IMG/VR virus record: IMGVR_UViG_3300021138_001350
Location: 1-64,000 of that record
Direction: 5' to 3' (one strand)
DNA: 64,000 nt
Source: a virus
Position 1 is the first letter of the stretch, and each line of letters starts with the position of its first letter. Below, one piece after another: positions 4,185-52,184 of this stretch. The position numbers were made by a program, and so were the translations under genes. The notes beneath the pieces were generated by a model. That model ran no database searches and had not been told where the DNA came from. It was given only the letters and a program-made list of their open reading frames with translations.

Positions 4185-4595
4185 ATGGCAGACGAATATA
4201 AAGAAATACAATCAGCAGTAGATTCGTTATTAGGAGCAAAATCATCGATAAGAAGAAAAAAAAGAACTCAATCAGAAAGACGAAGAGAATTATTCTTCAC
4301 ATTAATAAATACCTTAGAAGAAACAATAGTAAGATCTAACATCGCGTACCAAGAGCTCCAGATCGATCTATTTAAATACGAAGATAAGTATATTCAGACA
4401 ATAGATATGTTAATGATCTTGAGCTTTGGAGAAGCTTGCACAGACGTTATTAGTTTTTATCTATATGATAGGATGAATGATGATGCTACACTAAATGCTA
4501 TGAAAACTACAGATGGCCAAGAAATATTGTTACAGAATCCTTACGATCTTTGGAATTTATTAGTTATGATGAACCCAAAAATAGATGAAGGGTAG
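4185..4595 (+). CDS. hypothetical helical protein
   Basis: A 136-residue protein with a very basic patch near the N-terminus (SIRRKKRTQSERRREL) followed by predicted helices and an acidic C-terminus. The 2-base gap from the upstream stop and the 11-base overlap with the HNH-like gene downstream suggest co-translation with both. A small DNA-binding or packaging role would fit the basic region and HNH neighbour, but no specific family signature is visible. Confidence 0.65.
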   Translation: MADEYKEIQSAVDSLLGAKSSIRRKKRTQSERRRELFFTLINTLEETIVRSNIAYQELQIDLFKYEDKYIQTIDMLMILSFGEACTDVISFYLYDRMNDDATLNAMKTTDGQEILLQNPYDLWNLLVMMNPKIDEG

Positions 4596-5430
4596 GAGGA
4601 AGAAATACCAGAAGAAATTACCGTGGGAACAAAGTAAGGCGTTAGGATTTCCCCATTTAGGTTTACAATTGACCGAAGACGAGATTAGGGATTCCATGGC
4701 CAATTCTCGTACTATAGCCGAAGCTTGTCGATACATGGGAATTAACTTCAAAACTTGGGTTAAGTACGCAAGCATGTACATTGACCTTGAGACAGGAAAA
4801 ACTCTCTACGAAATTCACAGAAAGTACGGCAATCCCAATGCACAAAGACCTAGAAAACACAAAGAAAATCTACCAAGACTTTATCAAAAACAAATAGACA
4901 ATCTACTTACTTACAGAAAGTGGACTAGTCCTGCAAGGGTGGTGATTTTAAAGAAGATGTTGATCTTACACGGATTGCACAAAGAAGAGTGCGAACACTG
5001 TGGTTATCACGAAAAAAGAGTAAAAGACGGAAAGCAACCACTGTTATTACACTTTGTTGACGGTGACCGCAGAAACTGGCAAATAGAAAATATCAGGTGG
5101 CTTTGTTACAATTGCTACTTCATTAATGTGTTTGACAGTTTTAGTGGACGAGTACTAAGAAATATGCAATCGAGTCCACTTGTTGGTGATGAAACTTCTT
5201 TCGAGTCCAATTTACTATTCTACAACATAGACGAAAATGTGTTAAAAGAGATAGAAAAGATGCAAGCTTTCTTAGACGAAGGAAGATATAAACACGAAGA
5301 AGATTTAATCGATTATAAAAACCAAGAAGATCAAGATCTAATCGATTTACAAAATATGGTACACGAAATAAAGTACGAAAAACCCGATTTGGGTGACGAT
5401 GAGAACCTACTAATAGATAGAAAAATTTAA
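4585..5430 (+). CDS. HNH-like zinc-finger protein (treble-clef)
   Basis: A 281-residue protein. Residues about 25-65 resemble a helix-turn-helix (DEIRDSMANSRTIAEACRYM). Residues about 133-185 form an HNH/treble-clef pattern: CEHCGYHE, then LLLHFVDGDRRNW, then LCYNCYF, i.e. two CxxC pairs flanking a histidine and an Asn/Trp element. The C-terminus (about 200-281) is acidic and unstructured. HNH endonucleases cut DNA with one metal ion; here the second half keeps the zinc cysteines, and the central LHFVDGD could carry the catalytic His. It may be a nuclease or only a DNA-binding protein. Confidence 0.65.
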   Translation: MKGRRKKYQKKLPWEQSKALGFPHLGLQLTEDEIRDSMANSRTIAEACRYMGINFKTWVKYASMYIDLETGKTLYEIHRKYGNPNAQRPRKHKENLPRLYQKQIDNLLTYRKWTSPARVVILKKMLILHGLHKEECEHCGYHEKRVKDGKQPLLLHFVDGDRRNWQIENIRWLCYNCYFINVFDSFSGRVLRNMQSSPLVGDETSFESNLLFYNIDENVLKEIEKMQAFLDEGRYKHEEDLIDYKNQEDQDLIDLQNMVHEIKYEKPDLGDDENLLIDRKI

Positions 5431-5470
5431 ATACATAACTGGCTGATCCCCAAAGCCTGACTCATAACTG

Positions 5471-5613
5471 ATTGGTTACCAATAAAAAAGTTCTCCATTG
5501 AGAACCAACGAGTTATGATCGCTCCCTGCTTACATTCTGGCGCAACTGATTGGTTTCCAATAGGCTTTTTTTCATTTGGATTTTTTTATGTCAATATTGT
5601 GTCGTATATTTAC
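5471..5613 (+). promoter_or_regulatory. modular early promoter with palindromic operators (copy A)
   Basis: In the gene-free stretch 5431-5633. Palindromes of the form ATTGG-n3-CCAAT lie at 5471-5483 (perfect), 5497-5509 (degenerate) and 5549-5561 (perfect); the last two start exactly 52 bp apart. A T-run and TATGTCAATATTG precede TATATTTAC at 5605-5613, 56 bp after the last palindrome. The same arrangement occurs at 13015-13131 and 33742-33859. The segment between the operators (5511-5532, containing GCTCCCTGCTTAC) is conserved with copy C. The start codon of the gene downstream is 21 bp past the box. Confidence 0.7.
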
Positions 5614-5633
5614 TATATTCAATTATCTTCCAC

Positions 5634-5954
5634 ATGAGCAAAAAACGCACAGATCGCAACCACATTATCTACGAAATCGTTAATACCGTTAACGGTAAAC
5701 GTTACATAGGATTGACGGTGGCACGCGGGAGAGCATACAAAAAAAGTGTATTAATTCGTTTTCACCAACACTGTATGCGAGCGTTAACTGAAAATAAAGA
5801 TTGGGCGTTATACAACGATATGCGTAAGTACGAACACGATGTGTACGACGTATTAATAGTAGATATCGTACGAGGTAAAGCTGAAGCACATCGCATAGAA
5901 ACTGATCTTATTCATAGTTACGAATACAAATTAAATTCAACCATTAAAAAATAA
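5634..5954 (+). CDS. GIY-YIG endonuclease
   Basis: 106 residues from the ATG at 5634. A longer reading from 5550 would run through the promoter, so this start is preferred. The GIY-YIG core is visible as IYEIVNTVNGKRYIGLT (residues about 12-28), followed by basic residues and a conserved-looking E near residue 85 (AEAHRIETDLI) in the position of the metal-binding glutamate. No C-terminal DNA-binding module (NUMOD) is attached, so it is a minimal nuclease. It is the first gene after promoter copy A. Such proteins in phages are homing-type nucleases or free-standing nucleases that attack competing DNA; which one applies here is unknown. Confidence 0.8.
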   Translation: MSKKRTDRNHIIYEIVNTVNGKRYIGLTVARGRAYKKSVLIRFHQHCMRALTENKDWALYNDMRKYEHDVYDVLIVDIVRGKAEAHRIETDLIHSYEYKLNSTIKK

Positions 5955-5957
5955 GTT

Positions 5958-6419
5958 ATGACAAACTCAAGAAATTTTCAAGTAAACGATTTTATATCAA
6001 TTAAGTACAATTACAATTACGGTATGGGCTCAGGATCTCAAGGATCTGTGGAAATTACAGGTATTGTTAAAAGCATAGATCTATCAAAGATGACGTTTGA
6101 ATTGTTAGCTACAAGTAAAAGAAAAGCTGAGAGCTATTATTTTTCTAGCATTAGTAGTATTACCATTCTTGAAAAACCTAAAGTGCCAGTAGAAAATGCA
6201 CTAGCTGAAATAACAAAAATAGGTGAAGGTCGCTACGTAATTTCTTTTAAAGGTAAAGAATACGAAGCTGCAAAAATCGCCTACGCAGGTAGATTAAGAG
6301 TGTTTAATAGAGTTAAAGGCGCGAGAGGTATGAAACGTGGAAATATTATTTGTAACGAGTACATGTTTGGAATTAAAAGTCTTCGTAGAGACATAGAAAT
6401 GGGTAAAAAAATTGCGTAA
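5958..6419 (+). CDS. hypothetical protein, small beta-barrel-like N-terminus
   Basis: A 153-residue protein. Residues about 9-72 alternate hydrophobic strands with glycine turns (FISIKYNYNYGMGSGSQG, VEITGIVKSIDLS) and could be an SH3-like barrel. Residues 90-153 are basic (RVKGARGMKRGNIIC, SLRRDIEMGKK), suggesting nucleic-acid contact. Follows the nuclease gene by 3 bases with an AAGTTATG leader. Family not recognised. Confidence 0.7.
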   Translation: MTNSRNFQVNDFISIKYNYNYGMGSGSQGSVEITGIVKSIDLSKMTFELLATSKRKAESYYFSSISSITILEKPKVPVENALAEITKIGEGRYVISFKGKEYEAAKIAYAGRLRVFNRVKGARGMKRGNIICNEYMFGIKSLRRDIEMGKKIA

Positions 6420-6439
6420 TAAAATTAAAAATAAAAGTT

Positions 6440-6649
6440 ATGACAAATTCACAAATCGAATTATTTAGTAAAATTTTAGACACTAATTGGGAATTGAAAG
6501 AAGCAGTTGATAACGAAAAGCATTTTCAAGCTGTATCTTTAAAAGATCAATTAGATCAGTTCATTGAAGAATTAAAAGAATCTATGGGTGTAGAAGCATT
6601 TGATACATTCATGAGTAATGGTAGAAAAATGTTTGCTTCAAAAAACTAA
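6440..6649 (+). CDS. small protein with UVR-like helical hairpin
   Basis: A 69-residue protein. Residues about 15-50 (LKEAVDNEKHFQAVSLKDQLDQF) follow the spacing of the UVR motif of UvrB/UvrC (a helical hairpin with basic or acidic caps and L/KD-L), which mediates protein-protein contact. The match is by eye only. Accessory array context gives no further clue. Confidence 0.6.
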   Translation: MTNSQIELFSKILDTNWELKEAVDNEKHFQAVSLKDQLDQFIEELKESMGVEAFDTFMSNGRKMFASKN

Positions 6650-6660
6650 AAAATAAAAAT

Positions 6661-6753
6661 ATGTTTACAGTCTATCTTATTATTTGTTTTGTATCGCTTG
6701 CGATATTAGCAGTGTGTTACATTAAAGCAGAACACCATCAAGACTGGGATTAA
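6661..6753 (+). CDS. single-pass membrane microprotein
   Basis: A 30-residue reading frame with its own ATG after an AAAAAT leader. Residues 2-22 are entirely hydrophobic (FTVYLIICFVSLAILAVCYI) and are followed by a short polar tail (KAEHHQDWD). It fills the gap between its neighbours exactly. Function unknown. Confidence 0.5.
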   Translation: MFTVYLIICFVSLAILAVCYIKAEHHQDWD

Positions 6754-6773
6754 TAAAATTAAAAATTAAAGTT

Positions 6774-7001
6774 ATGACAATACAAGTACCAAAATCAGTA
6801 AAAAGTTATTCAGAATTGGCAGACGTAAGAAACGATGTCAAGTGTAAAATGATTGGTTCATTTTCAGGCCATCTAAAATCTATTCTATATTCAGGATTAT
6901 TAGACAAAAATGAAATTTCAAAAAAACGAACAGAACAGTTTTTAATCGAAATGGAAGAAATTTGGAACGCTCAGTACGAGATTAAAGTAGAGAACAATTA
7001 A
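6774..7001 (+). CDS. hypothetical protein upstream of a ribozyme
   Basis: A 75-residue helical, charged protein (VKSYSELADVRNDVKCKM; EQFLIEMEEIWNAQYEIKVEN). Not recognised. Its stop at 6999-7001 is 15 bases before the core helix of the hammerhead ribozyme, so self-cleavage would separate its mRNA from the downstream gene. Confidence 0.65.
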   Translation: MTIQVPKSVKSYSELADVRNDVKCKMIGSFSGHLKSILYSGLLDKNEISKKRTEQFLIEMEEIWNAQYEIKVENN

Positions 7002-7004
7002 CAG

Positions 7005-7079
7005 TTAATTGACATAGGTTAACTGATGAGACTTCAATAGTCGAAACCGCTATCATGCGGTATTAACCAATAAAATTAA
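7005..7079 (+). ncRNA. type I hammerhead self-cleaving ribozyme
   Basis: All parts of the hammerhead consensus are present in order. Stem I 5' strand GGTTAA (7017-7022), core CTGATGA (7023-7029), stem II GACT-TCAAT-AGTC (7030-7042), core GAA (7043-7045) plus A15.1 (7046), stem III CCGC-TATCAT-GCGG (7047-7060), U16.1 (7061), H17 = A (7062), and stem I 3' strand TTAACC (7063-7068). Stem I extends beyond an internal loop (7011-7016 against 7069-7073) through TTAATT (7005-7010) paired with AATTAA (7074-7079); such a loop is where hammerheads make their contact with loop II. Cleavage is expected between 7062 and 7063, leaving a 21-nt 5' leader on the mRNA of the next gene. Confidence 0.9.
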
Positions 7080-7083
7080 AGTT

Positions 7084-8049
7084 ATGAATTTATTTCAATC
7101 AGTCAAGTCATTTATCAATAGTCGTGAAGTGAATAGTACGTTTACTACGAAAGAATTACACGATGCTATGAACGGTATTGAAAGTGTAACCGCATGGAAA
7201 AGACACGGTAACGAATTCTACAGAACAAATACTTACAGATCTTATTTAAGACGTTTAGGTTTTGTTAATAGAATTAAGAACGGTCTTTGGATGGTGATAT
7301 CACCGATACCAAATTGGTTCGATAGTGGCACTGCAAACTTTTTATTATTTCCAGCTTATAGATTTGAAAATGGAAAAACAATAAGACAGTCTGAATACAA
7401 TGGAGAAACTAGAGCTCAGATCGAATTGAAATTAGAAAATCATTTTAAACATTATAAAAATATGAAACAAAAGTTGGAATTCAAAGTAGGCGACAAAGTA
7501 AAAATAGTTGGAAAGACTGGTTACCACGGATTTGAAATGCAAGAAATTGTAGAAGTTGTTTTCGTTGGTGATGAAACTTTAGAGTGCGAAGGAAACGGTG
7601 GTGGAAAAACTACATTTCAACAAACAATAGATAAAAATGATGTGGTACTGTACTACGAAGTAAACATTCCAGAACCCTTTGAGAAAGAAGTACGACCATC
7701 TAGCGCCAAGGAATTGGCAAGAGAATTGGTAGGTGACGGTAAAACTCCTAACGTGTGGTTCGTTACTTATGGCGCTTACATAATGGTTAGAGAAGATTTT
7801 GATTGTAGCGACTACGAATTATTGGAAGGTTATTCAGAAAAAGATTCAGAAACTTTTGGACCTTTTTATTCTTACCAAGAAGCTTGCGATAAATACGATG
7901 ATATAGATTTGGATCCACGCGATGGCATTGGTCAAGTGTTTATTGAAGACAGATTAATTGGTACAGTTAAAGAGAAGTGCCTAGAAAAGGTAATTAAAGT
8001 AGATTATAGTTATAACGAACACGATGATTCAAAATTTTATAAAAAATAA
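7084..8049 (+). CDS. winged-helix-like plus SH3-like two-domain protein
   Basis: A 321-residue protein. Residues about 1-80 look like a winged helix: TTKELHDAM, then YRSYLRRLGFVNRI followed by a wing (KNGLWMVISPIP). From M127 a KOW/SH3-like strand pattern begins (FKVGDKVKIVGKTGYHG) to about residue 180. The C-terminal part (about 200-321) is acidic with several Tyr/Phe and is not recognised. The gene at 14155 repeats this domain order. A DNA-binding regulatory role is inferred from the first domain. Its leader is only the 21 nt downstream of the hammerhead cleavage site, so its translation or mRNA stability is likely tied to the ribozyme. Confidence 0.7.
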   Translation: MNLFQSVKSFINSREVNSTFTTKELHDAMNGIESVTAWKRHGNEFYRTNTYRSYLRRLGFVNRIKNGLWMVISPIPNWFDSGTANFLLFPAYRFENGKTIRQSEYNGETRAQIELKLENHFKHYKNMKQKLEFKVGDKVKIVGKTGYHGFEMQEIVEVVFVGDETLECEGNGGGKTTFQQTIDKNDVVLYYEVNIPEPFEKEVRPSSAKELARELVGDGKTPNVWFVTYGAYIMVREDFDCSDYELLEGYSEKDSETFGPFYSYQEACDKYDDIDLDPRDGIGQVFIEDRLIGTVKEKCLEKVIKVDYSYNEHDDSKFYKK

Positions 8050-8107
8050 ATTACACAAAATTAAGATCGAAAAAATAAAGTAATCATAAAAATTAAAAAT
8101 TAAAGTT

Positions 8108-8581
8108 ATGGGATTAGACATGTATTTACACAAAAAAACTAACGTTAAGAACTACAGCTTTTATTCAGACGAAGAAACTACGTTAGTAACAGTTACAAGA
8201 AACGGAGAATCGGTAAAGTCTATCGATCCTTCAAAAGTATCAATGATAGAGCAAGAAGTTGGGTATTGGAGAAAATTCAATGCTCTTCATTTGTGGTTCG
8301 TTAATAATGTACAAGGCGGTAAAGACGATTGTGCAGAGTACTACGTTAAGAAAGATAAAATGCAAGAATTACTACAAGTATTAAAAGAAGTAAGTAACGA
8401 TCATTCAAAAGCACCAGAATTATTGCCTATTGGAAATGGATTCTTTTTTGGAAATACAGATTATGATGAGTGGTATTTCAATGACGTTAATAGATCAATA
8501 ATGATATTTGAAGACATATTGAAGACTTCCATTAGTGAAGACGATTTGTATTCTTCTTATCACTATCAAGCAAGTTGGTAA
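8108..8581 (+). CDS. conserved phage protein of the MGLDMYL family
   Basis: 157 residues. It begins MGLDMYL and contains VGYWRKFNALHLWFVNNVQ, DDCAEYYV and GFFFGNTDYDEWY. These are the hallmarks of a widespread phage and mobile-element family with no established biochemical function. Length is typical and no piece is missing. The 50-bp gap before it is AT-rich and shows only the AAAGTTATG leader. Confidence 0.8.
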   Translation: MGLDMYLHKKTNVKNYSFYSDEETTLVTVTRNGESVKSIDPSKVSMIEQEVGYWRKFNALHLWFVNNVQGGKDDCAEYYVKKDKMQELLQVLKEVSNDHSKAPELLPIGNGFFFGNTDYDEWYFNDVNRSIMIFEDILKTSISEDDLYSSYHYQASW

Positions 8582-8610
8582 AATATTTTAATAAACTAAT
8601 AAAAATAATT

Positions 8611-8931
8611 ATGCAATTTAAATCTTTATACCCACCCATTTGCTTTACTAGTCCAAGTACGAATATCATCTACATTGTGGCAGGAGGAATTTATCAACAA
8701 GTGGACAAACTGTACGATTGGTTAGAACTAAAAGAAATGTGGACTCCAATTGTGTACGATAAACCTTATCAGAAACCTGTGATAGTAGTAGAACCTATCA
8801 AGTATTTTGTTGAAGGTACTAAAGGCAACAAGTACGAAGTTGTAAATGATAATGGAGTGTGGACGTGTTCGTGTCCTGCACACGGATTTGGAAGAGGCAA
8901 AGATTGCAAACATATAAAATCTTTAAAATAA
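8611..8931 (+). CDS. SWIM-type zinc-finger protein
   Basis: 106 residues from the ATG at 8611, which has the usual AATTATG leader; an upstream TTG at 8575 would overlap the previous stop and is less likely. The C-terminus is a SWIM zinc finger: WTCSCPAHGFGRGKDCKHI (CxC ... CxH, residues about 85-104), a fold used to bind DNA or proteins. The N-terminal part (YPPICFTSPSTNIIYIV) is not recognised. Short SWIM proteins are common as phage accessory genes. Role unknown. Confidence 0.75.
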   Translation: MQFKSLYPPICFTSPSTNIIYIVAGGIYQQVDKLYDWLELKEMWTPIVYDKPYQKPVIVVEPIKYFVEGTKGNKYEVVNDNGVWTCSCPAHGFGRGKDCKHIKSLK

Positions 8932-8937
8932 AAAGTA

Positions 8938-9339
8938 ATGAAAAAAGAATTCATTCCATACGAACAAGCATTAGCTCTTAAAGAGTTAGGGTTTGATGAA
9001 CCATGTTTTGCATATTATTTTACTACTAATGGTGAAAATTGGGAATTTGCAGCTAAAAGAGAGTTTGATAAAATAAATGAAACATTAGTTATTGGTGATA
9101 AGTTTATATTATCTGCACCATTATACCAACAAGCATTTAGATGGTTTAGAGAGAAGCATGGACTATATTCATACATAGAAACAGTTTTTGTAGTAGGTGC
9201 AGCTTCTCCTATAAAATATGATTACGTCATATTAGAAAATAATGAGGAAGAAGTATTTTATACAAATATGCCATACCATTCCCATGAAGAAGCAGAACTA
9301 GCTTGTCTTAATAAATTAATTGAAATAGTAAAACAATAG
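8938..9339 (+). CDS. FIPYEQAL-family accessory protein, tandem copy 1
   Basis: 133 residues opening KKEFIPYEQALALKELGFDE, with a second conserved block APLYQQAFRWFREKHGL (about 62-78) and a C-terminal block EAELACLNKLIEIV. The next gene has the same three blocks with divergent sequence between them. This small family recurs in Bacteroidota phages and has no known function. The separation of identical blocks by variable segments suggests a conserved scaffold with a variable surface. Confidence 0.75.
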   Translation: MKKEFIPYEQALALKELGFDEPCFAYYFTTNGENWEFAAKREFDKINETLVIGDKFILSAPLYQQAFRWFREKHGLYSYIETVFVVGAASPIKYDYVILENNEEEVFYTNMPYHSHEEAELACLNKLIEIVKQ

Positions 9340-9341
9340 TT

Positions 9342-9755
9342 ATGAATGAAGAATTTATACCTTATGAACAAGCATTATCTTTAAAAGAATTAGGTTTTGA
9401 TGAACCTTGTTTTGGTTGGTATCGGTCGTCACTAATACCAAGTAATTTTACCGAGTATTTTTTAGAGACAGAATTTGGTATGAATGAAAGTCCAAGTGAT
9501 TGCGTCAATAGTAATTTTTTAGATAAAGCGTGTAGTTCTCCACTATATCAACAAGCATTCAGATGGTTTAGAGAGAAGCATAACTTAACAGCTAATCCAT
9601 CTATCTGTAGTAATGGAACATGGAGTGCTTGGGTAATGAGTATTCCCTATAATCCTGAAGATGGTATAATGAATGATACAGATGGATTTAAAACATATGA
9701 TGAAGCTCAGTTAGCTTGTCTTAATAAATTAATTGAATTAATAAAAAAGAAATAA
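9342..9755 (+). CDS. FIPYEQAL-family accessory protein, tandem copy 2
   Basis: 137 residues, paralogous to the preceding gene: EEFIPYEQALSLKELGFDEP, SPLYQQAFRWFREKH and EAQLACLNKLIELI align without gaps, while residues about 25-60 and 85-115 do not. The 2-base gap and the shared leader show recent tandem duplication. Function unknown. Confidence 0.75.
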   Translation: MNEEFIPYEQALSLKELGFDEPCFGWYRSSLIPSNFTEYFLETEFGMNESPSDCVNSNFLDKACSSPLYQQAFRWFREKHNLTANPSICSNGTWSAWVMSIPYNPEDGIMNDTDGFKTYDEAQLACLNKLIELIKKK

Positions 9756-9994
9756 TGGCAAATCCACAAGAAGGAAAACCGATCTGGGTAGAAAGTATCT
9801 TAACAGACGAAGAATACAGAGAGTGTTCCAAAAAGTACCCAAATACATTTACGAAAGGACCAATTAAACCCGCATTTTTTCATTGCGAATTTAGATGGAG
9901 ATATAGAATGGGTGCTGGTATGACATCTGAAGAATTGAAGGTTTATAATAAGAGAATTGCTTCTTTGGAAGAGATGCTTAAACAATTAAAATAA
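9755..9994 (+). CDS. hypothetical protein
   Basis: A 79-residue protein whose ATG shares its A with the previous TAA (TAATG). It has a Pro/Trp-containing N-terminus (GKPIWVESILTDEEY), an aromatic basic middle (FHCEFRWRYRMGAG) and a C-terminal amphipathic helix. Not recognised. Confidence 0.65.
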   Translation: MANPQEGKPIWVESILTDEEYRECSKKYPNTFTKGPIKPAFFHCEFRWRYRMGAGMTSEELKVYNKRIASLEEMLKQLK

Positions 9995-9999
9995 ATATT

Positions 10000-10572
10000 A
10001 TGATATTATTTAAAGGTAAAAAGGCAAAAGTAGGCCCAGTGCATACTAAAGATATTACATTAGAGGATCTAAGAGTAGTATTCTTTCCCAAAACATTTTA
10101 CGAGAAGTACGGTTATTTAGGTTCAGTTCCATGGAGAGAGGAAGGTCCAATATTCAAAGCGATGGAACCTTTAGTAATTTACATGGACTACAAAGCAAAA
10201 CCTTTTTGGTGTCCACGGTGGTTAATTAGATTGTTGCATTTATTCGGTTCTGATAATTCTATTGTTAGAGTGAGAAATAGAAAGCTACACAATCTAAAAA
10301 ACAAAATCACTAAAGGTTGTTTGATATGGGATTATAAAACTAAATGGTCTGACTATGATCTTAGAATAAGTGTAACTGGTACAAATGAAATGCAATTCTT
10401 AGCTGATGCCATTGAAACTGAATTCTATGATAGAGGGTATAGAATAGATTTAGCTGAGCAGATTAAGGAACTAGATCCTGACACTAGATATCATAAAGGT
10501 GATACTCCTACTATGTTAAAAAAAGAATTACACAGATTACAAGATAGTTTAGATTTGGACGAATTAAATTAA
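10000..10572 (+). CDS. hypothetical protein
   Basis: A 190-residue soluble protein, basic in the first half (KAKPFWCPRWLIRLLHLFG) with a predicted alpha/beta C-terminal half (YDLRISVTGTNEMQFLADAI). No catalytic motif is evident. Located between two small proteins in the accessory array. Confidence 0.65.
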   Translation: MILFKGKKAKVGPVHTKDITLEDLRVVFFPKTFYEKYGYLGSVPWREEGPIFKAMEPLVIYMDYKAKPFWCPRWLIRLLHLFGSDNSIVRVRNRKLHNLKNKITKGCLIWDYKTKWSDYDLRISVTGTNEMQFLADAIETEFYDRGYRIDLAEQIKELDPDTRYHKGDTPTMLKKELHRLQDSLDLDELN

Positions 10573-10579
10573 TTATATC

Positions 10580-10705
10580 ATGTTAATAATAGAAGATCAA
10601 ATAATTACAGCATATTCCGTATTTTTAGGATCCGCTTGTATATTATCATTTGCAGCATATTTAATACACGAATTTTATAAAAAAGATCAAGATGGAAATG
10701 ATTAA
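10580..10705 (+). CDS. single-pass membrane microprotein
   Basis: A 41-residue frame from ATG 10580: a short polar N-terminus, a hydrophobic helix (YSVFLGSACILSFAAYLI, residues about 12-29), then a charged tail (HEFYKKDQDGND). It overlaps the acetyltransferase start by 14 bases, the overlap size used elsewhere in this array, which supports it being real. Confidence 0.5.
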   Translation: MLIIEDQIITAYSVFLGSACILSFAAYLIHEFYKKDQDGND

Positions 10706-11129
10706 TAGTAAAAAACCGGCTGATTCAATCCTTCAGAAATTCGAAGATCAGCATCCAGGAAATTTAGGTTGGGACTTAGAAGTTAAAAAAGCTTTCATAC
10801 GTGAGAAAAATTCAAAGGCATTTTATTTAAAAATTAACAATCGTTGTATAGCAGAATTACTAATATCTTGGAATTCTGACAACGTATTTTTAGTGAATAG
10901 TATTACAGTTCTTCCAGAATACAGAAATAATGGCTATTCAAAAAAATTACTTAAACATGGTTTTGAATGGGCTTTAGATAATGGGTTTGAATTATGTATA
11001 GGAGAAGCGAGAATAGGAGCAAGTTGGAATGCATTTAAATCTTTTGGAGCAAAATCTATATTCATTCACAAAAATTGGTGTAAGTCAAAGGAAAACTATG
11101 TGAGCTTTTTAATTAAATTAAAAAAATAA
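10692..11129 (+). CDS. GNAT-family N-acetyltransferase
   Basis: 145 residues with the GNAT fold. Motif A, which binds the acetyl-CoA pyrophosphate, is visible as ITVLPEYRNNGYSKKLL (about 72-88) with the R-x-x-G-x-S variant of the P-loop. The preceding strand is NRCIAELLISWNSDN, and motif B follows (WNAFKSFGAKSIF). These enzymes acetylate an amine on a small molecule or protein. The substrate cannot be read from sequence. Confidence 0.82.
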   Translation: MEMINSKKPADSILQKFEDQHPGNLGWDLEVKKAFIREKNSKAFYLKINNRCIAELLISWNSDNVFLVNSITVLPEYRNNGYSKKLLKHGFEWALDNGFELCIGEARIGASWNAFKSFGAKSIFIHKNWCKSKENYVSFLIKLKK

Positions 11130-11133
11130 AGTT

Positions 11134-11322
11134 ATGTTTGAAGAACTAGAAAAAGAAAGACAAAAAGTTATGGGAGATCCTAAATTTCAAGAATGGTGTA
11201 AAGAGTTTAGAGTATCTATAAATACAAGAATTCCTGAAGCAGAGTACAGAGCAATGGAGATTATGAAGCAATACGAATCACAAGATTTATTTTATTCTAA
11301 ACTAATTAAAATGGTTAACTAA
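11134..11322 (+). CDS. hypothetical helical protein
   Basis: A 62-residue, highly charged helical protein (LEKERQKVMGDPKFQEWCKE). ATG follows ATAAAGTTATG 5 bases after the GNAT stop. Not recognised. Confidence 0.6.
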   Translation: MFEELEKERQKVMGDPKFQEWCKEFRVSINTRIPEAEYRAMEIMKQYESQDLFYSKLIKMVN

Positions 11323-11326
11323 AATC

Positions 11327-11731
11327 ATGGAGGAAAAAAAGAAAAAGAGCGTAGTATCTAGAGCAACTGCGTACAAAATTCTTTGGTGGTGTATAAGCGA
11401 GTACGGAAGGTCCAAACTTAATGGACCTTACCCGTATCTTGAATACAGAAAAGCTGATTATTATACGGGAGAGGATTGTGGATACTACGATGAAATAGAA
11501 CAGGTGATCTTTATTAATAAAGACGCTCATCTAACATTAGAAGATCTTGTTAAAACTATTATACATGAATACACGCACTATGTTAAACATAGTATGCATG
11601 AATATAAAATACTGTCAAAGTACTTAAGTCATCATAGAAACCCATTAGAAATAGATGCAAGAAGGACAGAGAATAGAGATTATAAAAAGTGTCTTAAATT
11701 TTTAAAGAAGGAATACAATATTTTCGAATAA
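11327..11731 (+). CDS. zincin-type metallopeptidase-like protein
   Basis: 134 residues. A metzincin/SprT-like zinc motif HEYTHYVKH occurs at about residues 84-92 (HExxH), preceded by the typical hydrophobic helix (LEDLVKTII). A candidate third ligand lies downstream in NPLEIDARR (E). The N-terminus has several aromatic residues and basic patch KKKKS. Phage proteins of this size with HExxH are often SprT- or anti-restriction-like, but the exact family cannot be fixed. Membrane segments are absent. Confidence 0.7.
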   Translation: MEEKKKKSVVSRATAYKILWWCISEYGRSKLNGPYPYLEYRKADYYTGEDCGYYDEIEQVIFINKDAHLTLEDLVKTIIHEYTHYVKHSMHEYKILSKYLSHHRNPLEIDARRTENRDYKKCLKFLKKEYNIFE

Positions 11732-11737
11732 ACACAA

Positions 11738-11746
11738 ATATTTATA
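11738..11746 (+). promoter_or_regulatory. candidate late promoter box ATATTTATA
   Basis: ATATTTATA starts 15 bp before the ATG at 11753 and heads a short unit that includes the holin-like gene at 11973. The placement matches copies before tail genes on the other strand. Confidence 0.45.
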
Positions 11747-11752
11747 CTCAGA

Positions 11753-11971
11753 ATGAAAGAATTGGTATACGATATGTTAGAAAAGATGGTCGAATCAAAA
11801 ATACCCGATAAGACTCATCATCTTCTACACATTAACTGTAGACAAGCGTTTTTGGAAGCATCAGTGGATCTAATAGAAAGAAAAATCATTAAACCCACTG
11901 CTAGTAATATAAAGTTTTTGACAGATAATTGGGAACATATCCTTTATACTAAATATTCAATGCTTAATTAA
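11753..11971 (+). CDS. hypothetical protein in the putative lysis unit
   Basis: A 72-residue helical protein rich in His and Lys (KIPDKTHHLLHINCRQAFLEASVDLIERK). It sits between a candidate late promoter and the holin-like gene, with a 1-base gap to the latter. Not recognised. Confidence 0.6.
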   Translation: MKELVYDMLEKMVESKIPDKTHHLLHINCRQAFLEASVDLIERKIIKPTASNIKFLTDNWEHILYTKYSMLN

Positions 11972-48425: not shown

Positions 48426-51400
48426 TTAACATTGATGACCTCTTGCAGTCATTACTCCAGTACTAGCTGCAATTGTATATGTAGTTTGTACAGCATCATT
48501 AATATCATATACATAAATAATTCCATTTATAGGAGTTCCTGATGAATTTCTAGCAACCATTCCAACTCCAAAGAATCCACCATTTGCTGTATATGTAGCT
48601 TTATCTGTTGAATTTAAGTAAATATTAAGATTAGCACCTGGAGTACATGATGAACTACTAGGTAATTGTGGTAAACCTTTAGCTAGAGTAACTGATACAG
48701 ATGGAGAATGGCTAGGTGTTACACTAGGAGTAGCTGACACTGCAGGAGTTACTGATACTGAAATACTAGGCGTACTACTTACCGCTGGAGTAACTGATAT
48801 ACTAGGTGTACTACTTACCGCTGGAGTAACTGATACTGCTGGAGTATTACTTACTGCTGGAGTAGGACTAGGCGACGGTGTAGGTGATGGTTGAGGACAT
48901 GTTCCACAAGTTGGTGTAAATCCAGTATTAACTGTAGCAAATGAACTACCATTAGTAACATTAATAGCTAAATATACTGGATTACAACTTGGTGATTCTT
49001 TAGTTCCTCCAGGAGAACAACTATTAAATTGAATATAGTATACTCCTGTATTTAAAGTAGCAAAAGTACTACTTGTGAATGTTGTGCTTGCACAGAAAGT
49101 AGGAGCATTACCACCAGTTCCAGTAGTAGTACCGCCAGTGCCCGCATTTGCGTCAGGTGTACCAGGCACAGTTGCTCCATTACAAGAATCATATGCATTT
49201 GTAGCTAAATAAATAGTATTTGCAAAGTTTGCAGGAGGTGAAGTACTCGGAGTAGGAGATATACTTACTGCAGGCGTTACTGATATACTAGGTGTAACAG
49301 AAACACTAGGTGTAACTGATACTGCAGGCGTTACTGATATACTAGGTGTAACTGATACTGCAGGCGTTACTGATATACTAGGTGTAACTGATACTGCAGG
49401 CGTTACACTTACACTAGGTGTAATTGAAATACTAGGAGTTATAGAAATGCTAGGTGTTACTGATATACTAGGTGTTACTGATATACTAGGCGTAATTGAA
49501 ATGCTAGGTGTAACAGAAACACTAGGAGTAACTGATACACTAGGTGTTACTGATATACTAGGCGTAATTGAAATGCTAGGTGTAACAGAAACACTAGGTG
49601 TAACAGAAACACTAGGTGTTACTGATATGCTAGGAGTAACTGATACACTAGGTGTTACAGATATACTAGGTGTTATACTTACACTAGGTGTTATACTTAC
49701 ACTAGGTGTTACTGATATACTAGGAGTTACACTTACACTAGGTGTAATAGATACGCTAGGAGTAACTGATATACTAGGTGTTACTGATATGCTAGGAGTA
49801 ACTGAAACACTGGGTGTTACACTAGGTGTAATTGAAATACTAGGAGTAACTGATATACTAGGAGTAACAGAAATACTAGGAGTAACTGAAACACTAGGTG
49901 TTACACTTACACTAGGAGTAGCTGAAACACTAGGGGTAACTGATACACTAGGTGTTACTGATACACTAGGTGTTACACTAGGAGTAACTGAAACACTGGG
50001 AGTTATACTTACACTAGGAGTAACTGATACTGAAGGTGTAACAGAAATACTAGGAGTAACTGAAACACTAGGAGTTATACTTACACTAGGCGTTACAGAT
50101 ATAGAAGGTGTTACTGATATACTAGGGGTAACAGAAATACTAGGAGTTACACTAGGGGTAACAGATATGCTAGGTGTTATACTTACACTAGGTGTTACAG
50201 ATATAGAAGGTGTTACTGATACACTAGGTGTTACTGATATACTAGGTGTTACACTAGGAGTAACTGAAACACTGGGAGTTTTACTTACACTAGGAGTAAC
50301 TGATACTGAAGGTGTAACAGAAATACTAGGAGTAACTGAAACACTAGGAGTTATACTAGGCGTAATTGAAATACTAGGAGTAACAGAAATACTAGGAGTA
50401 ACTGATACACTAGGAGTTATACTTACGCTAGAAGTTACACTTACACTAGGTGTAATTGAAATACTAGGAGTTACAGATACTGAAGGTGTAACAGAAATAC
50501 TAGGAGTAACTGATATGCTAGGAGTAACTGAAACACTAGGTGTTACACTAGGGGTAATAGATACGCTAGGTGTTATACTTACACTAGGTGTAATACTTAC
50601 ACTAGGTGTAATCGATACACTAGGTGTTATAGATACACTAGGAGTTACACTAGGAGTAGCTGAAATACTAGGAGTAATTGAAACACTAGGAGTTTTACTT
50701 ACACTAGGAGTAACTGATATACTAGGAGTTACACTAGGAGTAACTGAAATGCTAGGCGTAACAGAAATACTAGGAGTTACACTAGGAGTTATACTAGGAG
50801 ATAATCCAGGAGTTGTTGATACACTAGGCGTAACTGATATGCTAGGTGTTACTGATATACTAGGAGTTATGCTAGGTGTAATTGAAACACTAGGAGTAGC
50901 TGAGATACTCGGTGTAAGACTTACACTAGGAGTAACAGAAATACTAGGAGTTACACTAGGGGTAACAGATATGCTAGGAGTTATACTTACACTAGGTGTA
51001 ATAGAAACTGTTGGAGTTATACTCACACTAGGTGTAACAGATACACTAGGAGTTATACTTACACTAGGTGTTTTACTTACACTAGGCGTAATAGAAACTG
51101 TAGGAGTTATACTCACACTAGGTGTAATAGAAACACTAGGTGTTATACTAGGAGTTATACTAGGAGATAATCCAGGAGTTGTTGATACACTAGGAGTAAC
51201 AGAAATACTAGGAGTTACACTAATAGTAACTGATATGCTAGGTGTTACTGATATACTAGGAGTAGCCGAAATACTAGGAGTAACAGAAATACTAGGTGTT
51301 ATAGATACACTAGGTGTAACAGATACACTAGGAGTTATACTTACACTAGGAGTTATACTTATGCTAGGTGTAACAGATATACTAGGTGTTATACTAGGAG

Positions 51401-52184
51401 TTATACTAGGAGATAATCCAGGAGTTGTTGATACACTAGGAGTAACAGAAACACTAGGTGTTTTACTTATACTAGGAGTAATACTCGGTGTTACACTAGG
51501 AGTAATTGATACTGTAACTGAAATAGTTGGAGTTATACTAGGTGTAACTGAAATAGTTGGAGTTATGCTAGGTGTAACTGAAATAGTCGGAGTAGGACTT
51601 GGACTAGGTATTTGTTCAGTTGCATATCCACTTAATGTACAATCAGGAGGGAATATTCCTAAATAATCTTTGTTTGTTATTATGACTATTCCTTGATTGT
51701 ATAAAATATTACCTACATGAACAAAAGAACTGCCACTAGTAGCTAGCACATTTCCATTTCCGTCATCATATATATAATATAAAGAAGATGATAAAATAAA
51801 ACTATTTCGTCCTATATTTTCTCCAAAAACATTTCTTGGAATAGAAAGTACAGATATCTGTGCATTTGATTCTGTAGGAAAATATCTAACATCAGCATCA
51901 AAAGTTCCTGAAGCTGCACTAGATTGTAAAGAATTATCAAAACTAGAACCCGTAGATAAATAAGATCCAGTAGTAAAATTAGAATAAAAAAGTTGTTTCG
52001 CAGAGTAATAAATTAGCGTGCTCTGTTGAACAGATCCACTTATATTTATTTGACCATTAATTCCTCTTAGAACAGAAATACCATAGTTACTAAATGTAGC
52101 ACTACTATAGGATGCAGTATAACGTAATTTAATAGGAGTTGTAGAACGGTCCGATGAATTAATCGTATTAAAAGCTCTACTCAT
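48426..52184 (-). CDS. giant tail fibre with a mucin-like hexapeptide shaft
   Basis: 1252 residues. Residues 1-190 are a globular N-terminal domain similar in style to other T4-like structural proteins (MSRAFNTINSSDRSTTPIKL) and probably attach to the tail. Residues about 191-985 are a nearly pure repeat of P-S-(V/I)-S-(V/I)-T with a few K/A/L substitutions. A Cys-rich globular part (CNGATVPG, FCASTTF, CSPGGTKESPSC) follows, then a short second repeat (PAVSVTPAVSSTPS) and a C-terminal domain (about 1180-1252). The repeats are rich in Ser/Thr and could be O-glycosylated. The opposite strand is also open across the repeat, an artefact of it. Confidence 0.82.
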   Translation of the reverse strand: MSRAFNTINSSDRSTTPIKLRYTASYSSATFSNYGISVLRGINGQINISGSVQQSTLIYYSAKQLFYSNFTTGSYLSTGSSFDNSLQSSAASGTFDADVRYFPTESNAQISVLSIPRNVFGENIGRNSFILSSSLYYIYDDGNGNVLATSGSSFVHVGNILYNQGIVIITNKDYLGIFPPDCTLSGYATEQIPSPSPTPTISVTPSITPTISVTPSITPTISVTVSITPSVTPSITPSISKTPSVSVTPSVSTTPGLSPSITPSITPSISVTPSISITPSVSITPSVSVTPSVSITPSISVTPSISATPSISVTPSISVTISVTPSISVTPSVSTTPGLSPSITPSITPSVSITPSVSITPTVSITPSVSKTPSVSITPSVSVTPSVSITPTVSITPSVSITPSISVTPSVTPSISVTPSVSLTPSISATPSVSITPSITPSISVTPSISVTPSVSTTPGLSPSITPSVTPSISVTPSISVTPSVTPSISVTPSVSKTPSVSITPSISATPSVTPSVSITPSVSITPSVSITPSVSITPSVSITPSVTPSVSVTPSISVTPSISVTPSVSVTPSISITPSVSVTSSVSITPSVSVTPSISVTPSISITPSITPSVSVTPSISVTPSVSVTPSVSKTPSVSVTPSVTPSISVTPSVSVTPSISVTPSVSITPSISVTPSVTPSISVTPSISVTPSISVTPSVSITPSVSVTPSISVTPSVSVTPSVSITPSVSVTPSVTPSVSVTPSVSVTPSVSATPSVSVTPSVSVTPSISVTPSISVTPSISITPSVTPSVSVTPSISVTPSISVTPSVSITPSVSVTPSISVTPSVSITPSVSITPSISVTPSVSVTPSISVTPSVSVTPSVSVTPSISITPSISVTPSVSVTPSVSVTPSISITPSISVTPSISVTPSISITPSISITPSVSVTPAVSVTPSISVTPAVSVTPSISVTPAVSVTPSVSVTPSISVTPAVSISPTPSTSPPANFANTIYLATNAYDSCNGATVPGTPDANAGTGGTTTGTGGNAPTFCASTTFTSSTFATLNTGVYYIQFNSCSPGGTKESPSCNPVYLAINVTNGSSFATVNTGFTPTCGTCPQPSPTPSPSPTPAVSNTPAVSVTPAVSSTPSISVTPAVSSTPSISVSVTPAVSATPSVTPSHSPSVSVTLAKGLPQLPSSSSCTPGANLNIYLNSTDKATYTANGGFFGVGMVARNSSGTPINGIIYVYDINDAVQTTYTIAASTGVMTARGHQC
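49250..51610 (-). repeat. 18-bp tandem repeat array encoding the fibre shaft
   Basis: About 2.36 kb of degenerate 18-bp units (on the plus strand variants of GTAACTGATACACTAGGT), roughly 130 copies. The units differ mainly at third positions and at V/I choices, and the GL-S-PSIT variant appears three times as a larger-period insert. No spacers, so not CRISPR. Smaller arrays of the same unit are at 47885-48155 and 48700-48870. Confidence 0.85.

Follow-up and report, generated by a model that had tools for sequence, protein, structure and literature searches.

The 64,000-nt lake-phage sequence analysed here (the window) contains a complete type I hammerhead ribozyme of 52 nt at 7017-7068 (+). 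We show that this element has the hammerhead fold, is conserved and lies between two cistrons, and we put a probability of about 0.8 on the reading that it acts in cis between these two phage genes as one of a group of hammerheads that separate the genes of polycistronic transcripts.

A check of the sequence located every invariant position where the preliminary description had placed it, and stems I, II and III (6, 4 and 4 bp) consist of Watson-Crick pairs throughout. The core consensus (CUGANGA ... GAAA, U16.1 and an H17 other than G) is present as CUGAUGA (7023-7029), GAAA (7043-7046), U7061 and A7062; A occupies position 17 in 82 of the 333 class members among the matches listed. Stem I is the open helix, and its strands GGUUAA (7017-7022) and UUAACC (7063-7068) are the outermost paired segments. 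Stem II (GACU-UCAAU-AGUC, 7030-7042, pairing 7030-7033 with 7039-7042) carries a loop that matches the class consensus UNANU, and stem III (CCGC-UAUCAU-GCGG, 7047-7060) pairs 7047-7050 with 7057-7060. The A at 7016 that precedes stem I is conserved in 300 of the 306 members, among the matches listed, whose stem I has 6 bp. On the 3′ side, an AA flank and an AU-rich leader (AAUAAAAUUAAAGUU, 7069-7083) lead to the ATG, and of the same 306 members among the matches listed, 299 have an A at +1 and 262 have one at +2. The near-invariant flanking A's and the UNANU loop hint at a possible tertiary contact between the periphery of stem I and loop II, although its form with an internal loop and an outer helix has no support.

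The ribozyme is positioned between an upstream co-directional ORF of 75 aa (6774..7001, +), which has no family match and whose stop lies 15 nt ahead of it, and a downstream ORF of 321 aa (7084..8049, +). No ORF of at least 50 aa overlaps 7002-7083 on either strand. The predicted cut at 7062|7063 would leave a 21-nt leader ahead of ATG 7084, in agreement with the preliminary description. The same description took the downstream gene to encode a putative DNA-binding protein, for which, as for any other function, we find no Pfam or PDB support; relatives of the protein were found only in the same phage species, and none among cultured phages. Paralogy of the genes at 7084 and 14155 is not supported. 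Elsewhere in the window, HNH and GIY-YIG homing-endonuclease-like genes are encoded at 4585-5954, just 5′ of the ribozyme region, and a 1252-aa ORF composed mostly of PSISVTPS-type repeats is encoded at 48426-52184 (-), on the strand shared with baseplate-like genes.

Given the complete consensus and the known behavior of the hammerhead family, the RNA is predicted to cleave itself in Mg2+, yielding a 2′,3′-cyclic phosphate and a 5′-OH. The two flanking genes are probably co-transcribed. Once RNA polymerase had moved beyond 7068, the RNA would fold and cut itself after A7062, so that the upstream mRNA would have the ribozyme body as its 3′ end, with a terminal 2′,3′-cyclic phosphate, and the downstream mRNA would begin with a 5′-OH and the 21-nt AU-rich leader, its first bases being the 3′ strand of stem I. 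From its position, the ribozyme would convert polycistronic phage RNA into gene-sized mRNAs. A plausible benefit would be a separate fate and decay for the mRNA of each gene, with ends that host RNases attack poorly.

Rfam 15 calls no hammerhead in the window at the gathering score. The Hammerhead_1 model (RF00163), named as a check in the preliminary description, was negative, with no gathering-score match and no entry even when matches with E values as high as 10 are listed; at that E limit the clan representative for the window is Hammerhead_3 (20.4 bits), and RAGATH-1 (RF03152) scores 23.2 bits, below its gathering threshold of 56.3. This outcome arises because Rfam models barely cover this group of hammerheads: only 1 of about 60 descriptor hits (14 loci checked) reaches an Rfam gathering score. 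The failure of RF00163 lies with the model and does not touch the definition of a type I hammerhead. A model that we built from 28 other phage ribozymes (R1) returned 7017-7068 as its sole match in the window (62.9 bits, E = 6.4e-15).

A descriptor of the three helices likewise matches the window at 7017-7068 only, and a scan for type III hammerheads found none there. Six IMG/VR loci from this phage species have the gene at 7084 (96-100% identity), and the ribozyme is kept in all six. These loci form two haplotypes, with L004-L006 as the divergent one. Across the 52 nt of the ribozyme the two differ at one base, in the stem III loop (7056), and 17 nt immediately 5′ of the ribozyme are deleted in the divergent haplotype. 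With a single ribozyme base changed, the comparison demonstrates conservation of the locus, but no covariation can be demonstrated there. Taken with the single copy in this phage, the missing Rfam call would fit a chance resemblance or a dead relic. We consider this the least probable of the explanations weighed, as the descriptor has no match in 16 Mb of simulated first-order Markov sequence with the dinucleotide content of the window, even at 4/3/3 bp, the ribozyme has changed at only one position beside the deletion, and the class-specific flanks are conserved.

An outer extension of stem I (7005-7010 with 7074-7079) had also been proposed in the preliminary description. We find no support for it: it overlaps the leader and competes with an energetically preferred 5′ hairpin, and as a class feature an outer helix was rejected (mean longest helix 3.68 bp, versus 3.76 bp with shuffled partners). 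In the competing hairpin, 7002-7010 (+) pairs with 7017-7025, a fold that would make stem I and some of the core unavailable. It occurs in both haplotypes despite their different upstream sequences, at -8.0 kcal/mol in the window and -14.2 kcal/mol in L004, and in an energy model that does not count tertiary contacts it is favored over the hammerhead by about 6 and 11 kcal/mol, respectively. Foreign flanks match the window value in 27 of 168 cases and the L004 value in 2 of 168. These observations raise the possibility of a regulated ribozyme, in which the hairpin traps stem I and the core, and upstream translation, ions or temperature decide between folding and cutting. Persistence of the hairpin in both haplotypes is consistent with such control, as is the stop of the upstream gene (7001), which adjoins the ribozyme in the window; in many relatives the stop and the ribozyme overlap. 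Taken together, however, the members of the class lack an upstream competing hairpin (mean -4.75 kcal/mol, versus -4.80 kcal/mol with swapped upstream flanks), and we regard regulation of this kind as unlikely.

To define the group to which the window copy belongs, we used two scans of viral contigs. The first, with a core pattern of fixed stem II length and no demand for stem I pairing, gave at least 116 unique hits, and among the matches listed 99 of 116 form a full type I hammerhead even though stem I pairing was not required; of the remainder, 10 pair in stem II and are type III by eye, and 7 look like chance. Type III-like hammerheads found with the same core pattern and judged by eye occur in the phage contigs L041, L053, L054, L057, L059, L067, L069, L072, L119 and L120. 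The second scan, with the window's own stem I (AGGTTAA...TTAACCAA), gave at least 119 stretches. The sequence GGTTAA/TTAACC itself recurs in these stretches, although pairing alone should matter. Adding a few bacterial MAG loci to the two scans gives at least 333 distinct type I hammerheads in at least 179 loci.

Throughout the group, stem I is 6 bp long with A's on either side, the stem II loop reads UNANU, and the predicted cut usually falls 15-40 nt ahead of an ATG. As a control for search bias, we recounted the traits on 144 ribozymes that match neither search pattern but are still descriptor hits, for which three paired stems are required. Among the matches listed, 130 of these 144 have a stem I of exactly 6 bp, and an A precedes stem I in 125 of the 130 and follows it in 125. 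The 114 pentaloops on a 4-bp stem II in this set, again among the matches listed, have U at positions 1 and 5 without exception and A at position 3 in 107. The window copy exhibits all traits of the pattern-free set, including the 4-bp stem II, and those of the R1 class.

The helices of related phage ribozymes are preserved by compensatory changes. When the 28 members are aligned, 12 of the 14 pairs show changes in both partners, with 118 doubly changed cells versus 34 in shuffles; the aligned sequences were chosen for pairing, and we therefore place more weight on the unselected pattern test and on cultured phages. Stem I is GCAAAA/TTTTGC in the Pelagibacter phages HTVC019P and Jormungand and GTTGTA/TACAAC in HTVC131P and HTVC022P, a change of four doubly compensated pairs ahead of the MarR and integrase genes that these phages have in common. 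Between Flavobacterium phages elemoA and elemoB, stem II changes from GACT/AGTC to GGTT/AACC with compensation, and Agrobacterium phage OLIVR1 also carries a type I hammerhead. A blastn search of cultured phages with a 161-nt region of the window leads to the Flavobacterium elemo ribozyme; its matches in Psa21 and HTVC031P contain no hammerhead by the descriptor.

Placement before genes is a regular property of the group. Among the matches listed, 264 of 333 cuts fall 15-40 nt ahead of an ATG that opens an ORF of 40 codons or more (10% at random positions), and such an ATG follows within 60 nt of the cut in 286 of 333 (28% at random positions). Upstream stop codons often lie in or beside the ribozyme, for example as the UGA of the core (first 170 hammerheads). 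A location tight against a start codon, described as unusual in the preliminary account, is thus the common arrangement among relatives, and it has a published precedent in the haloviruses HF1 and HF2, whose HHphage hammerhead lies 13 nt before a start codon, with a transcript 5′ end that maps no more than 3 nt from the cleavage site (PMC3088659). The downstream genes do not form one functional group: most have no assigned function, with anti-restriction, MazG, lysis and tail genes scattered among them.

The densest array is found in contig IMGVR_UViG_3300030382_001968 (L138), where each of the 15 genes called from 5144 to 11898 has a hammerhead ahead of it (13 of type I, two of these detected by the model only and one weak, plus 2 of type III); a further type I copy precedes a shorter, uncalled ORF. 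The type III hammerheads, at 5077 and 9173, precede the two operon genes that have no type I copy. L143, a MAG labelled Aliivibrio, packs 9 hammerheads into 5.8 kb and L251 packs 8 into about 3 kb, with some junctions empty in both. In Flavobacterium phage elemoA_7-9A (L128), a type III hammerhead at about 698-750 lies upstream of the gene at 781 and a type I hammerhead is found at 2503, a site overlapped by the record's antisense 'hypothetical protein' call. The phage of the window carries one copy, so operon-wide dicing is not seen in that phage.

The occupation of equivalent junctions by type I and type III hammerheads suggests that the cut itself is what is selected. The ribozyme body would stay on the upstream mRNA after type I cleavage and on the downstream mRNA after type III cleavage, and as both types occur in one operon, the common product would be the cut and its ends, not a one-sided hairpin. 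This arrangement also bears on whether the hammerheads are selfish or hitch-hiking elements that have spread among junctions without benefit to the phage. Hammerheads elsewhere do ride on repeats and retroelements (PMC3088659, PMC6155905), and copy number here ranges from 1 to 15 per record, in records partly picked for multiple copies and so not a random sample. Against such spread, we saw no mobile-element boundaries, stems II and III vary among the copies of a genome yet remain paired, and equivalent junctions are filled by two ribozyme types; we consider it improbable, somewhat more so than regulation by the 5′ hairpin.

A further alternative, raised by Perreault et al. (PMC3088659), is that fragments between hammerheads with matching stem I are closed into circular or re-ligated RNA, either by reverse ligation or through an RtcB-type ligase. 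In favor of this, the copies of a genome often have similar stem I sequences, but neighboring copies differ in stem I in several genomes (L061, L093) and the window phage offers a single copy; products of this kind were not detectable by Perreault et al. (PMC3088659). We judge circular RNA very unlikely, if less so than a chance resemblance, and retain the separation of mRNAs at gene junctions as the preferred reading.

Neither the ribozyme type nor the idea of processing is new. Perreault et al. (2011) described clustered prophage hammerheads, with tandem sets that cut in vitro and one set that cut in E. coli, and already proposed transcript processing by phage hammerheads (PMC3088659); a 2017 review noted a persistent link between hammerheads and phages and left the role open (PMC6155905). 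Those prophage clusters and the HF1/HF2 HHphage resemble the present group in that hammerheads flank phage genes (PMC3088659), whereas here one tight type I subclass recurs in many phage contigs, at up to one per called operon gene, and in cultured tailed phages. RF00163, the S. mansoni type, shares the core, the three helices, the open stem I and cleavage after H17; the present class differs in its lack of a supported outer stem I helix, its fixed 6-bp stem I with single-stranded A/AA caps, its UNANU loop and its sub-threshold scores. RAGATH-1 (RF03152) has the same type I order of core elements, but its model includes an upstream hairpin that is not a feature of this class. Type III hammerheads (RF00008) share the catalytic core and occupy equivalent junctions (5077 and 9173 in L138, near 700 in the elemo phage L128); they differ in that stem I is closed and stem III open, which keeps the ribozyme body on the downstream mRNA.

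As far as the open-access literature searched shows, what is new is a tight subclass of which Rfam recognizes almost no member and which cultured Pelagibacter, Flavobacterium and Agrobacterium phages carry, together with an operon in which each called gene has its own hammerhead. We found no published account of per-gene hammerheads in phages in the open-access papers searched, and an earlier description may exist elsewhere. Interest attaches to the subclass and its placement, and the window copy by itself is an ordinary addition.

The role of hammerheads in phages and bacteria has been a question since at least 2011. As a tight subclass nearly always missed by Rfam occurs in culturable phages and reaches up to one ribozyme per called gene of an operon, this role becomes directly testable. 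A wider proposal, for and against which we see the odds as evenly balanced, is that many unrelated tailed phages use this compact hammerhead subclass as a routine, protein-free code for mRNA processing, in which junction cutters, placed ahead of every gene in some operons, would generate monocistronic mRNAs with 5′-OH ends and the window element would represent its single-copy use. If this is true, maps of phage transcription drawn from promoters and terminators would overlook a class of mRNA ends.
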